From Arthrobacter jinronghuae (GTDB lineage: Bacteria > Actinomycetota > Actinomycetes > Actinomycetales > Micrococcaceae): a DNA stretch of 64,000 nt. Where the stretch lies: positions 3,286,001-3,350,000 of the forward strand of contig NZ_CP104263.1 of the NCBI RefSeq assembly GCF_025244825.1. Reading direction: 5' to 3'. Both the position numbers and the translations under genes were made by a program. Each line of letters opens with the position of its first letter. Position 1 is the stretch's first letter. Under the pieces are notes generated by a model. That model did no database searches, was not told the origin of the DNA, and saw only the letters and a list, made by a program, of their open reading frames with translations. Below, piece by piece: positions 56,380 to 63,595 of this stretch.

Positions 56380-56546
56380 GGCTGGTTTTCCCTCGACAAT
56401 GCGGCAGCACAACAGCGGCCGCATGGCCGTGCCCGGCTACTCAGCGGTATTCAGCCCCTTTTCATGATTCACGGTTGTTGTCCCCCGCAAGGGTGCTCAT
56501 ACTTCTTCTCGTCAGAATGCCCTGGCCAAAGGCGAGGAGATACCAA

Positions 56547-56876
56547 ATGAGCAACGGCGCTGTGGTCGGCCTGGCAGACGGAATAGACGCTCTGCGGACC
56601 GAACTCATGGACGCAGCCGTCCGCGGCTGGGACCAGGAAATGAAATTCTCCATGGAACCGGTCGAACTGACCGTGCAGGTCGCTGTGACCAGAGACGTCA
56701 ACGGAAAAATCGGTTGGAATATTTTCGAGATCGGCGGAAAGTATGAGCAGGTCGGGACGCAGACGCTGACCCTGAAACTGACCCCGCTCTGGAAACAGGA
56801 AGACGGGTCATTCACCTCGGATTTCAGCATTGCTTCATCTGCTTCTTCGGAAGATACGGTGGGACCCCACAAATGA
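56547..56876 (+). CDS. Trypco2 family (trypsin-co-occurring) small protein
   Basis: A 109-residue soluble protein. Helical GLADGIDALRTELMDAAVRGW is followed by beta-strands (VELTVQVAVTRDVNGKIGWNIFEIGGKYEQV, TQTLTLKLTPLW). This shape matches trypco2 domains, small proteins encoded next to trypsin-like proteases in predicted biological-conflict systems. GAGGAGA precedes ATG 56547. It sits 34 bp before the protease-NTPase gene, so the two probably form one operon and complex. Confidence 0.82.
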   Translation: MSNGAVVGLADGIDALRTELMDAAVRGWDQEMKFSMEPVELTVQVAVTRDVNGKIGWNIFEIGGKYEQVGTQTLTLKLTPLWKQEDGSFTSDFSIASSASSEDTVGPHK

Positions 56877-56910
56877 ACGCCTCGTTTACCCAACACCTCC
56901 TGGATTAGCG

Positions 56911-59031
56911 ATGCCATACAGTGGCGACGGACTTCAGGGCGTCCCCAAGAACCGCGTGGTCATGGTCGTAATCACTTTTACGGACGGGAGCCAGCAATCC
57001 GGCTCAGGCTTCTTAGTCACCGGAAGGAAAGTTCTTACTGCAGAACACTGCACCCGGGACATCAGTACAAAACAACGCCAAGTACGTGAAGTACGGGTGC
57101 TCCGTGCCAGCGATGGGGCCGCTGCCTCCGTCACGGGGGCAACGACGTCCAGGGAACTGGATGTGGCAGTCCTCGAACTTAGCGATGAGGCACCGTGGGA
57201 CTCCGAGTTTCCTAAGGTCCTCTTTGCCCGTGCCAGACGGGAGCACTCAGGGATGTTGGAGGACTGTGAAGCGATCGGCTATCCGCTGTTTCAACGCGAC
57301 CCCGACAAACGCACGCGGGACACCGGTGAAGTGCACGGGACCATCTACCTCACAGATGAAGCTGAGTCGGGGAGGTTCCTCATGCGAGAACCGCGCATCT
57401 CCCCAGGAGCCATGTCAGGCGGAGAGGTTGGAAGCACCGGGGAACTCGAGCTCGGTCGTTCCCCGTCCCCGTGGGGCGGCTATTCCGGGGCGCTGCTCTT
57501 CTACTCCGGGCGGGCAATCGGAGTGGTGGTCGAACATCATCCACGGCAGGGAGATTCAGCTCTGCGCGCCATTTCCTTCGACAGGATTGCCGAAGACGCG
57601 GAGACCAACCGGGAAGCGCACGCGGTCTCCGAGGCCTTGGGATTACCAGACCGGAATAAGATGGTTGGGGTTTCCACGGAATCAGGGCAACCGCTGGCCG
57701 GCTTGGTGGAATTGCTGGACGGCGACGACTTGCCTCTCATGAGCAACCTGACTCCTTACCGCATGGGTGCCACAGCCACCCGGTACAGCAGCCTGGACAA
57801 CTCTCAGGGGCAGGATCCCTATGTGCCGCGGACCTTCCAGGACCTGGACACACGGCTACAGGCGGCACTGACACCGGGGGAAATGGTGCTAATAGTGGGG
57901 CCCTCCAAAGCTGGCAAGACCCGGTCCGCCTATGAAGCCCTCCGGGAACGTTGGCCGCAGGCACACTTAGCCGCGCCGGAGCGGACGGCTCTGACTGCCT
58001 TGGTAAGGCACCCCCGACTACGCATGAGCACTGACCCTGTCATCGTATGGTTGGACGACCTTCAGGACTATCTCAACGTCACGGCTCCACTCACCCCAGC
58101 CCTGTTGGCCGAACTCTTCACCCGGCCGGGTCCAACGCTGGTCGTAGCCACCCTGCGCACCGAGGAGAGAATTCTTCTGGCAGGTCCCGAAGGCGAGTTG
58201 ACGCGCAATGTGCGGCAACTAATGCGTGAAGCTGTGGAACTAGAGCTGGGACCCACCAATCAGGACGCGGTAGAGCAGTCAGCGGCGCACGCCCTCTACC
58301 CGGAGGAGGACCTCTCACACTTCGGACTGGCTGAACAACTTGCCGGTGCTCCCGCCCTACTTCAGCAATACCGAGACGCGCGGGATGGACAACCCCTATT
58401 TCATGCCGTCATCCAGTCAGCCGTTGATTGGACCCGAGCGGGCATGCCCGGCCCGGTCCCGGAAACGGAGCTGGCGGACTTGGCTACTCAGATGTTGCTC
58501 CGGGACCGGCCGGACATCCGGGTAACCCGTAAAAACATCTGCAAGCAAATCGAAAGGGCGGGCACTCCACCCAAAGGCGCCGGTAGGGTTGCCGCCCTTC
58601 AGACTGTTTGGATGCGTCATGAAACTCAAGGGATGCGGGGCTACCACCCGTTCTCCTACCTCGTCGCTGCAGATGATGACCAGATGAGCGGCGCTCGCGC
58701 AATTCCAACCGACTTCTGGAGGGGCGTCCTTGGAAGAGCTGACGATGAAGCAGCTTTTGAAGTGGGGTTTTCCGCATACCAACGCGATGCTATAGATATC
58801 GCTGTTCAAGCGTGGAAACTCTCCGCCAATGCCGGCGAGACGAATGCCATGAACAACCTCGGCGTCCTCCTGAGCGAGCGATTGGATCCGCCGGACCTGG
58901 ACGGCGCCCGCCACTGGTACACACAAGCCGCCAACGCCGGCCAGACGAGTGCCATGAACAACCTCGGCGTACTACTGAGCCACCTACTGGATCCCCCGGA
59001 ACTGGACGGCGCCCGCCACTGGTACACATAA
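56911..59031 (+). CDS. Trypsin-like protease - P-loop NTPase - Sel1 repeat protein (interrupted)
   Basis: As read, 706 residues; without the TAA at 59029-59031 it would continue to 1128. The N-terminal domain is a trypsin-like serine protease with His46 (LTAEHC), Asp84 (ELDVAVLEL) and Ser192 (GGYSGALLF). A linker follows, then a P-loop NTPase with Walker A GPSKAGKT at 330-337 and Walker B-like VIVWLDDLQDYL ending near 388. The C-terminal part is made of Sel1-like repeats beginning at about residue 635. The domain order resembles STAND-type conflict proteins in which repeats sense a signal, the NTPase relays it and the protease is the effector. GC is lower than in the flanking genes, suggesting acquisition. 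Confidence 0.85.
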   Translation: MPYSGDGLQGVPKNRVVMVVITFTDGSQQSGSGFLVTGRKVLTAEHCTRDISTKQRQVREVRVLRASDGAAASVTGATTSRELDVAVLELSDEAPWDSEFPKVLFARARREHSGMLEDCEAIGYPLFQRDPDKRTRDTGEVHGTIYLTDEAESGRFLMREPRISPGAMSGGEVGSTGELELGRSPSPWGGYSGALLFYSGRAIGVVVEHHPRQGDSALRAISFDRIAEDAETNREAHAVSEALGLPDRNKMVGVSTESGQPLAGLVELLDGDDLPLMSNLTPYRMGATATRYSSLDNSQGQDPYVPRTFQDLDTRLQAALTPGEMVLIVGPSKAGKTRSAYEALRERWPQAHLAAPERTALTALVRHPRLRMSTDPVIVWLDDLQDYLNVTAPLTPALLAELFTRPGPTLVVATLRTEERILLAGPEGELTRNVRQLMREAVELELGPTNQDAVEQSAAHALYPEEDLSHFGLAEQLAGAPALLQQYRDARDGQPLFHAVIQSAVDWTRAGMPGPVPETELADLATQMLLRDRPDIRVTRKNICKQIERAGTPPKGAGRVAALQTVWMRHETQGMRGYHPFSYLVAADDDQMSGARAIPTDFWRGVLGRADDEAAFEVGFSAYQRDAIDIAVQAWKLSANAGETNAMNNLGVLLSERLDPPDLDGARHWYTQAANAGQTSAMNNLGVLLSHLLDPPELDGARHWYT

Positions 59032-60297
59032 GCCGCCAACGCCGGACACACGGATGCCATGGTCAACCTCGGCGTACTACTGAGCCACCTACTGGATCCT
59101 CCGGATCCAGATGGCGCCCGCCACTGGTACACACAAGCCGCCAACACCGGCAATACGAATGCCATGAACAACCTCGGAACCCTGCTTGTGGGTGTTGACC
59201 CTCCCGACCCGGACGGCGCCCGCCACTGGTACACACAAGCTGCCAACGCCGGAGACACCAAATCCATGTACAACCTCGGGAACCTCCTTGCGGGTACGGA
59301 TCCGCCGGACCTAAACGGGGCTCGCCACTGGTACACACAAGCCGCCAACACCGGCAATACGGATGCCATGTACAACCTCGGCATATTGCTAAGCCACCGG
59401 TCGGATCCGCCGGACGTGGACGGCGCCCGCCACTGGTACACGCAAGCCGCCAACACCGGACACACGGATGCCATGGTCATCCTCGGGAACCTCCTTGCGG
59501 GTATGGACCCGCCCGACCTGGACGGCGCCCGCCACCAGTACACACAAGCCGCCAACACCGGCAATACGGATGCCATGATCAACCTCGGCGTCCTCCTGAG
59601 CGAGCGATTGCATCCGCCGGACCTGGACGGCGCCCGCCACTGGTACACACAAGCCGCCAACACCGGACACACGGATGCCATGGTCATCCTCGGGAACCTC
59701 CTTGCGGGTATGGACCCGCCCGACCCGGACGGCGCCCGCCACTGGTACACACAAGCCGCCAACGCCGGACACACCGGCGCCATGTTCATTCTCGGGAACC
59801 GGCTTGTGGTGATGAATCCACCGGACACTGGCGGCGCCCGCCATTGGTACACACAAGCCGCCAACGCCGGCAATACCGATGCCATGGTCAACCTCGGCTT
59901 ACTACTGAGCCAGCTAATGGACCCCCCGGACTTGGACGGCGCCCGCCACTGGTACACACAAGCCGCCAACGCCGGACACACCGGCGCCATGTTCATTCTC
60001 GGGAACCGGCTTGTGGTGATGAATCCACCGGACACTGGCGGCGCCCGCCATTGGTACACACAAGCCGCCAACGCCGGCAATACCGATGCCATGGTCAACC
60101 TCGGCGTACTGCTGAGCCAGCTAATGGACCCCCCGGACTTGGACGGCGCCCGCCACTGGTACACACAAGCCGCCAACGCCGGCAATACCGATGCCATGGC
60201 CAACCTCGCCATACTTCTTGAAACCCGGTTGGACCCTCCCTATCTGGACGGCACCCGCCACGGGTACACACAAGGCCATAAAAAAGAAGAAGAGTGA
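59032..60297 (+). pseudogene. Continuation of the Sel1-like repeat array after an in-frame stop
   Basis: In the same frame as the upstream protein, 421 further residues continue the repeat series. About fourteen units in all, each 34 or 35 residues, share GARHWYTQAAN(A/T)G-x-T-x-AM-x-NLG. The stop TAA at 59029 sits exactly where other units have CAA in TACACACAA, so it is a single C-to-T change. The segment may be translated from ATG 59059, by readthrough, or not at all. It ends in GHKKEEE at 60297. Confidence 0.8.
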
Positions 60298-60536
60298 GTT
60301 GCTATCGCTGCACCGGCCGACGTCGAAATCACCACGCCTACTCCCGCCGAAGCGGCCCTGGCAGTGAAGTATTACAACTGCTCCCTCGAAACCGGCGTGC
60401 GGGACGAATTCGACGCACTGATCCTTGAGTCCAAGAAGGAAGTTGTCGCCGAGCACGCCGCAGAACTGGAGGGATCCCCCCCCCCCCCCGGATCGCCGAG
60501 CTCGCCGCCACCGCCGGCGAAGTCATCTCCCGTTAG
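60298..60536 (+). pseudogene. Coding-like remnant with 14-C tract
   Basis: Directly after the TGA of the repeat protein, in the same frame, the sequence reads like protein (PADVEITTPTPAEAALAVKY, then ETGVRDEFDALILESKKEVV). A run of 14 C at 60476-60489 follows. With 12 or 15 C the frame would continue RIAELAATAGEVISR and stop at 60534. As read, it instead yields a Pro/Ser-rich tail ending at 60615. A possible start is GTG 60364. Function is unknown. Confidence 0.5.
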
Positions 60537-61653: not shown

Positions 61654-61721
61654 GGGATCCCATGCCGTCCTGGAATCGGTGATGAAGGGATAGGGTCCGC
61701 CCAGGGGGTCGACGGCGGGCG

Positions 61722-61807
61722 GATCCCTGCGGTCTGTCCGGATCCCTGCGCCGCGCGGCGCAGGGATTGCCACAAACCGCAGGATTTTTGCCAAACCGCA
61801 GGGAATC
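61722..61807 (+). repeat. 86-bp palindromic intergenic repeat
   Basis: It carries the perfect palindrome ATCCCTGCGCCGC/GCGGCGCAGGGAT (61742-61767) between arms CGGT(C)TGTCCGG and TGCCACAAACCGCAGG, then TTTTTGCCAAACCGCAGGGA. It has the same length and order as the copy at 63222-63307. Confidence 0.92.
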
Positions 61808-61836
61808 GCCCAGATTCCATGCCTCCGCTTTCCCGG

Positions 61837-63182: not shown

Positions 63183-63221
63183 GAGTATGGCAAGGACTTT
63201 CGGCCGCGATCACGACGTCCG

Positions 63222-63307
63222 AATCCCTGCGGTTTGTCCGGATCCCTGCGCCGCGCAGCGCAGGGATTGCCACAAACCGCAGGGTTTTTCCCAAACCGCA
63301 GGGAATC
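63222..63307 (+). repeat. 86-bp palindromic intergenic repeat
   Basis: This is the second same-orientation copy of the element at 61722, with the palindrome at 63242-63267 interrupted by one changed base. An additional half-element, GCCACAAACCGCAGGGAATC, follows at about 63353-63372. The 437-bp gap (63159-63595) holds only these repeats and the leader of the GNAT gene. Confidence 0.92.
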
Positions 63308-63595
63308 TCGCCCGGATCGCCGAGTTGCGCTGCCGCACGGGAGGTCACTTGCCACAAACCGCAGGGAATCGGGACCCGCAAGCCCTGGCAGCGGTGCAGC
63401 AACCGCGACCCAGCTTGCCGGTGTCCGCCGTCACGGCGGGCACCGGTTAGACTCTGGCTGAGAAGACGCGGCGGGTGCCACCAGCTGCAACGCGGCGGGT
63501 CGCCGACGCCGCCCCCTGCCGGGGCAGGCAACAGCACTTCGTCCCTAAAACACCCCGGAGCCCCGTCTCCGTTTCAAAGCTGGAAGAAGTAGAAA

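Follow-up and report, generated by a model that had tools for sequence, protein, structure and literature searches.

Whether a small Trypco protein belongs with the protease or with the sensor of the large protein encoded beside it is the question raised by a two-gene island of Arthrobacter jinronghuae, which lies between xdh and a dapA-like gene in the analysed window, a stretch of 64,000 nucleotides (positions 3286001-3350000) of a genome of 3,640,817 bases on a single contig. Positions given below are those of the window, and the island, its genes, domains and repeats as well as the gene remnant beside it all lie on the + strand. The best explanation, to which a probability of roughly 0.62 is assigned, is a two-gene, horizontally acquired conflict module, probably directed against invaders, in which a Trypco-trypsin pair operates independently of VMAP on a STAND-like sensor that is cut in this copy by an in-frame TAA.

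The upstream gene (56547..56876) encodes a Trypco2 protein of 109 residues, matching PF19631 with an E-value of 5.1e-18 (65.5 bits against a Pfam cut-off of 24.2). It is the sole PF19631 match in its genome and is preceded directly by GGCGAGGAG, a possible ribosome site. Beyond Trypco2, Pfam gives this protein no domain save one weak chance match. A gap of 34 bp, as given by the original prediction made from the sequence of this locus, separates it from the ATG at 56911 of the trypsin-nucleoside triphosphatase (NTPase) gene, which as it reads (56911..59031) encodes 706 residues, ends in the second unit of its Sel1-like array and has homologues of 36-61% identity. An N-terminal trypsin-like peptidase domain spans approximately 56911..57600 (PF13365, E 1.3e-8, over cut-off). 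The anticipated catalytic triad is intact, with codons at 57046-57048 (His46), 57160-57162 (Asp84) and 57484-57486 (Ser192), and all three residues are present in 53 of the 54 rows with a trypsin domain in a 63-row alignment that includes the window protein, P0015 being without the Asp. The Walker A motif GPSKAGKT (57898..57921) occupies residues 330-337, with G330, G335 and K336 invariant in 63/63 rows, and the Walker B-like pair Asp382-Asp383 lies within WLDDL (58054..58059); the residue numbers originally assigned to the triad and to Walker A prove correct. Position 382 is D in 51 rows and N in 10, and position 383 is D in 49 and E in 11.

The relationship between Trypco and the parts of the large protein was read from the best 80 of 156 relative loci obtained by a profile scan of genome contigs. 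The patterns used for the scan derived from the trypsin and the NTPase, not from Trypco, and the partner result was therefore not favoured by the search. An iterated hidden Markov model (HMM) detected a trypsin domain at 15 of the 80 loci, fused to the NTPase of the large protein in 14 of them (the NTPase frame of L042 being broken), and a Trypco gene stands directly upstream in 14 of the 15 trypsin loci, compared with 0 of the 65 trypsin-less ones. Ten of these upstream genes encode Trypco2 (L036-L040, L042, L050, L052, L059 and L066), while Trypco1 takes the same place at four loci with a more divergent trypsin (L054, L056, L058 and L073). Local HMMs found neither Trypco1 nor Trypco2 in the stretch around the 65 trypsin-less loci. 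The Pfam models, applied to whole genomes, likewise gave no Trypco2 beside the 61 of these loci that were covered and no Trypco1 beside the 64 that were covered; the Pfam Trypco matches in trypsin-less genomes lie on other contigs or far away, as was also seen for nine stretches with ambiguous coordinates, whose contigs differ in length from those of the loci. Four of the six seeds of the local Trypco1 HMM came from the four loci then found, and that search was repeated with the Pfam model. Viewed from the opposite side, 17 of 22 Trypco2 matches, in genomes chosen because they contain relatives of the large protein, lie immediately upstream of a trypsin domain on the same strand. Trypsin and Trypco are thus strongly linked.

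Several observations weigh against this rule or narrow it. One trypsin locus (L041) has neither Trypco1 nor Trypco2, and at another (L050) the trypsin is accompanied by no NTPase match and is not on the NTPase of the family. The loci are related, so that the counts are not independent, and some are cut by contig ends; "trypsin-less" denotes a locus below the local iterated HMM, which a more divergent trypsin could escape. Trypco2 is also common elsewhere, exceeding the cut-off at other places in 21 of 47 of these large actinobacterial genomes.

Since Trypco2 occurs with the protease rather than with the NTPase or the sensor, it is most likely the partner of the protease. The large protein would belong to an actinobacterial family built from an N-terminal effector, a STAND-like P-loop NTPase and a C-terminal Sel1/TPR sensor array, the effector here being a predicted trypsin-like protease that appears to come as a cassette with the small upstream Trypco2, or with Trypco1 in sister systems. 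The repeats may bind an invader or stress cue, upon which the NTPase would change state or assemble and license the protease, with Trypco2 most likely serving as its dedicated regulator or docking partner; the protease would then cleave proteins of the cell or of the invader, probably as an abortive response. A bolder proposal, tentative and with the odds somewhat against it, holds that a mobile trypsin effector cassette fits several unrelated NTPase-repeat sensors independently of VMAP and takes Trypco1 or Trypco2 interchangeably as its dedicated partner. On this view, bacterial immunity would have a second kind of protease-partner pair, one without a nuclease, whose sensor is a Sel1 array that duplicates fast. 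The family-wide partner rule is of more interest than the window copy itself. The same NTPase-repeat backbone exists with trypsin and Trypco2, with trypsin and Trypco1, and with neither, and the proposition that Trypco serves the protease is therefore open to direct genetic and biochemical test. If true, it would add a protease output to NTPase-repeat immunity beyond the published VMAP setting.

That setting was described by Kaur et al. in 2020 (PMC7159879), the accessible part of which reports mutually exclusive Trypco1 and Trypco2 beside trypsins in VMAP ternary (vWA-MoxR-VMAP) systems. Those systems share with the island the placement of Trypco1 or Trypco2 next to a trypsin, but the window genome has no VMAP-C match, the core here is an NTPase with Sel1/TPR repeats, and there are two genes only. 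Of 11 genomes searched for VMAP-C, 5 do not have it, among them this one and those of L036 and L037, and the Trypco-trypsin rule holds here without VMAP. Other parallels, drawn from portions of the respective papers, are partial. Avs5 (AVAST type 5; PMC12931631) resembles the large protein in combining an NTPase with C-terminal TPR/Sel1 repeats as proposed sensor; it differs in its Sir2 effector and nSTAND3 domain, and the part of the paper available mentions neither trypsin nor Trypco. The MBL nuclease-trypsin pairs of Hachiman, AVAST, Lamassu and DRT (PMC12799240, in part) likewise join a trypsin to the N-terminus of a defence enzyme and have the gene of a dedicated partner upstream, yet the partner here is Trypco2 and not an MBL-fold nuclease. 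In the CARD-NLR-like LypABC system (PMC13236601), a trypsin peptidase works with a TPR-bearing NLR-like ATPase, but the two are not fused, a CARD-like domain is present and a trypsin-endonuclease forms the third protein, and the available text does not mention Trypco. The accessible portion of PMC8195603 names no Sel1. AVAST type 1 is not indicated, as the Avs1b model reached 30.2 bits over the trypsin part only, against an NCBIfam cut-off of 1500 bits.

The original prediction had held that no characterised system has exactly this gene order, which in the strict sense does not stand, as the Trypco-trypsin pairing was already published in 2020 (PMC7159879, as far as accessible) and NCBI already names such proteins. 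Its "bifunctional trypsin-like peptidase domain-containing/SEL1-like repeat protein" entries (for example P0003 from Arthrobacter, P0014 from Kutzneria and P0019 from Streptomyces) belong to the same family, with the same architecture and 46-61% identity; the window copy differs from them in being broken by the TAA, and its frame is without the C-terminal cap which, as judged by eye, is present in P0003, P0004 and P0009 and absent from the window frame, P0006 and P0014. A literature search largely without subscription journals found the Trypco name in two papers and no published role for these domains, and a search on trypsin, Sel1, STAND and anti-phage terms gave nothing on this architecture or its function among the matches listed. 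The family is annotated but, as far as found, uncharacterised, and the window copy, an interrupted member of it, varies the known theme of conflict systems that pair Trypco with trypsin.

The class of the NTPase was judged from motifs and from profile searches. The P-loop and the acidic pair fit a STAND NTPase; R416 is kept in 58/63 rows and P481 in 61/63, and, as a reading of motifs, the TLR-type Arg and the GAP motif would correspond to the Sensor-1-like Arg and the GxP-like motif of STAND NTPases. Several results point the other way. No STAND model (NACHT, NB-ARC or nSTAND) exceeded the Pfam cut-off in the window protein, whose NTPase region gave only a sub-threshold AAA_16 match (E 7e-4); nSTAND3 appeared in 6 of 15 family members, at best with a sub-threshold E-value of 0.0041; and an hhalign comparison of the NTPase alignment with one true nSTAND3 domain (L138) aligned 29 columns, covering the P-loop only. 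The assignment rests on motifs, and the domain is accordingly called STAND-like, not settled as STAND. The HMM searches proposed with the original prediction recovered Trypco2, Trypsin_2 and, past the stop only, Sel1 over cut-off, but not the NACHT/STAND label. A genome scan with nSTAND3 (PF20720) proved uninformative, with matches in 79/79 genomes and 14/14 controls, and a PDB profile search with the NTPase alignment returned only ABC-transporter, other P-loop or scattered matches, which were not taken as evidence.

The N-termini attached to this NTPase vary among relatives. Hydrophobic segments, seen in crude hydropathy profiles that begin at the earliest possible start, occur in 17 trypsin-less loci, and L043 shows a borderline HNH_2 match exactly at cut-off; the remaining trypsin-less loci show neither, with the full Pfam scan covering L043, L046 and L087. 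Two Nocardia NTPase-repeat relatives (L043 5428-7857 and L044 876-3308) carry an HNH-like N-terminus replacing the trypsin, in L044 as judged by similar sequence. C-terminal Sel1 or TPR repeats were found in 7 of 8 proteins scanned, L050 being the exception. According to precomputed Pfam annotation, NACHT, NB-ARC or phosphorylase domains occur in homologues retrieved by their trypsin part (P0089, P0090 and P0108), and database proteins such as P0089, P0090 and P0104 join a trypsin domain to NACHT or NB-ARC. Differing N-termini on a shared NTPase suggest the modular construction to be expected of conflict systems centred on an NTPase.

The closest named relative, L036 of Arthrobacter sp. PsM3 (60% identity), has a resolvase upstream and matches to LmuA, LmuC and LmuB (E 8e-97, 2e-35 and 4e-159) starting 1.3 kb downstream; Pfam names the LmuA and LmuC matches ABC-3C components. 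This Lamassu neighbourhood is suggestive, not proof, and it is the sole clear defence island among 11 neighbourhoods, the others being uninformative. At those 11 loci, 45 of 68 selected ORFs (open reading frames) were searched and yielded five PADLOC families with one member each (the selection did not include the L036 Lamassu genes, and twenty proteins were inspected singly), and none of eight neighbouring ORFs of the window matched PADLOC; these counts weigh against a conflict function.

The distribution of the two genes supports horizontal acquisition. Among 99 genomes searched, Trypco2 occurs in two, one being its own and the other belonging to the same order, and the trypsin-NTPase protein in three, in full only in its own, with the NTPase part alone in G015 and G073 (26 and 36% identity); neither Trypco2 nor the full trypsin-NTPase protein was found in any of 27 other genomes of the genus. 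The acquired island, of about 3.9 kb (56396..60297), was delimited by BLASTN against L033, L034 and L035 together with the sister junction sequences, its approximate left edge being the end of similarity to the sister xdh-dapA intergenic DNA and its right edge the TGA of the Sel1 frame. About 4.2 kb separates xdh from the dapA-like gene in the window, compared with about 0.4 and 0.65 kb from xdh to the dapA-like match (91% identical to the window by BLASTN) in two genomes of the same genus, G014 (L033) and G015 (L034), where the site is empty of the island. At the same place, G009 (L035, 5112-9574) carries desaturase-like, PadR-like, permease-like and lipoprotein-like genes, from which it follows that the site is variable; these names, like xdh and dapA-like, were read from translations. 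Compared across relatives, the locus is therefore not conserved at this site in all of them with normal GC (guanine plus cytosine) content, and the earlier description of a candidate conflict/defence module is upheld by the empty sister sites, the absence from the rest of the genus, the trypsin-Trypco linkage and the Lamassu genes beside the nearest named relative. The evidence supports regarding the Trypco2/trypsin/NTPase/Sel1 pair as a horizontally acquired, sporadic module of the predicted-conflict kind.

The signs of mobility are less favourable to this interpretation. The island edges show no direct or inverted repeat beyond chance and no recombination signature; in a search for integrase-type borders, the longest shared word was 8 bp, equalled in 62 of 200 shuffles for direct and 60 of 200 for inverted repeats. 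No match to the large protein was found in 50,697 phage records, and 18 plasmid records match without any covering 80% of the query; because none of their best places begins before residue 246, the plasmid matches are without the trypsin domain. The predicted lower GC content is borne out only in part. At 61.3%, compared with 66.7% in the rest of the window, the island is the lowest-GC stretch, but by a small margin only, the 106 other stretches of 3.9 kb ranging from 62.2 to 71.7%. Its direct flanks reach about 71%, and on the right side the value is down to 62-64% again at 61.75-62.75 kb.

Two alternatives concern what such a module would do. Trypco2 could be the first substrate of the protease, a small pro-effector freed by cleavage, by analogy with the MBL-fold nuclease in Hachiman and AVAST. 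The order of the genes is the same, with an upstream partner and a protease fused N-terminally to a sensor enzyme (PMC12799240, in part), and Trypco and trypsin are closely linked; Trypco2, however, comprises only about 80-109 residues and is devoid of a further credible Pfam domain, and this alternative is regarded as unlikely. The upstream gene gives no PADLOC match, and no MBL-fold nuclease gene occupies its position. Alternatively, the pair might have no part in conflict, the large protein being a protease of ordinary housekeeping or protein quality control that carries a TPR-type adaptor. This would fit the eight neighbouring ORFs without PADLOC matches and the lack of edge repeats, but the sporadic presence, the empty sister sites, the differing N-termini and the Lamassu neighbour of L036 weigh against it, and it is regarded as distinctly improbable. 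A conflict module with Trypco2 as partner of the protease remains the preferred reading.

The sensor part of that module is interrupted in the window. As originally described, there are about fourteen Sel1-like repeats, namely 14 DNA units of 34-35 residues at 58822..60294 (PF08238), the last of which is diverged, but the array spans an in-frame TAA in unit 2 (59029..59031), where the other 13 units have CAA. Because of this stop, the predicted 1128-residue protein is not encoded; the product is 706 residues long and has two repeats, the other 12 being lost. Past the stop, the same frame continues for 421 codons of Sel1 repeats (59032..60297) and is free of further stops until the TGA at 60295-60297. 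PF08238 scores 187.1 bits there (E 1.6e-56, 10 stretches) and 23 bits ahead of the stop, under the cut-off of 30.7, so that the 706-residue product itself falls short of the Sel1 cut-off. As the rest of the Sel1 frame is still clean, the interruption is probably recent. By analogy with Avs5, in which C-terminal deletions in the TPR/Sel1 region abolished immunity (PMC12931631, in part), a copy without these 12 repeats would most likely be disabled. The choice is between a recent inactivation and a single misread base; most likely the window copy is non-functional or altered, and has become so recently.

The array itself carries traces of a duplication process. A recent tandem duplication (59727..60105) left an exact repeat of 172 bp, its two copies beginning at 59727 and 59934, at a distance of 207 bp; in DNA, units 10 and 12 are identical, 11 and 13 agree by 98% and 7 and 9 by 97%, the overall range being 57-100%. 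Across the 33 of 50 family members with at least four repeats, mean repeat identity is 0.65 within an array and 0.53 between arrays, and in 20 of the 33 the repeats of an array are more alike among themselves than they are to those of any other protein; in three (P0014, P0035 and P0036) the within-array value is below the mean between-array value, which runs counter to this pattern. Most arrays look homogenised by duplication, as expected of a fast-changing sensor, and a unit with a stop could arise or be lost in the same way.

A sequencing or assembly error in the tandem repeat, leaving the gene intact, is a doubtful explanation of the stop, albeit one with specific points in its favour: a single C-to-T difference sets the unit apart from its 13 sisters, no other stop interrupts the 421 codons, and among 19 sequences examined, of which 14 have detectable repeats (two cut by contig ends), the window alone has repeats past a stop. 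Against it stand the single-contig genome and the database entry P0002, a 689-residue form of the window protein ending at the same stop, whose truncated sequence represents a cluster of two members on two contigs, although both may stem from one assembly. The next best homologue is only 60% identical among the best 120 of 121 homologues (with scoring limited to the 8000 candidates sharing most words), so that no intact near-identical copy was found. Broken relatives exist as well, the NTPase being split over reading frames in L042 5965-8339 (Streptomyces CBMA123) and L049 5395-8510 (Fodinicola). Alternatively, the 706-residue protein may be functional, or recombination between repeats may make stop-bearing and stop-free versions and thereby switch the system on and off. 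Units duplicating in steps of 207 bp would permit this, and L039 reaches its natural end at only 756 residues with three detected repeats; no second version of the locus was seen in the assembled sequence, and this alternative, too, is regarded as distinctly improbable. A recent interruption of a formerly intact sensor remains the preferred reading of the stop.

The right edge of the island cuts a lipoprotein-like gene, of which a 3' remnant lies at 60313..60533. In tblastn with the 321-residue lipoprotein-like query of G009, supported by BLASTN, the remnant corresponds to query residues 249-302, directly after the island, with a weak match of residues 306-321 (E 0.11) in another frame past a run of 14 C, while the first 248 residues have no match in the window. 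As only the 3' part of this gene remains after the island, the segment seems to have replaced something. The 14-C run (60476-60489) inside the remnant, across which the frame changes, is the only homopolymer of at least 10 in the window. DNA similar to the PadR/permease-like genes of G009 sits on the far side of dapA in the window. A partly palindromic intergenic repeat of about 85-100 bp occurs at 61720-61823 and 63217-63318, with 67 matches in its own genome, often in both orientations of one place, and several copies are present at the xdh-dapA junction of the sister genomes L033 and L034.

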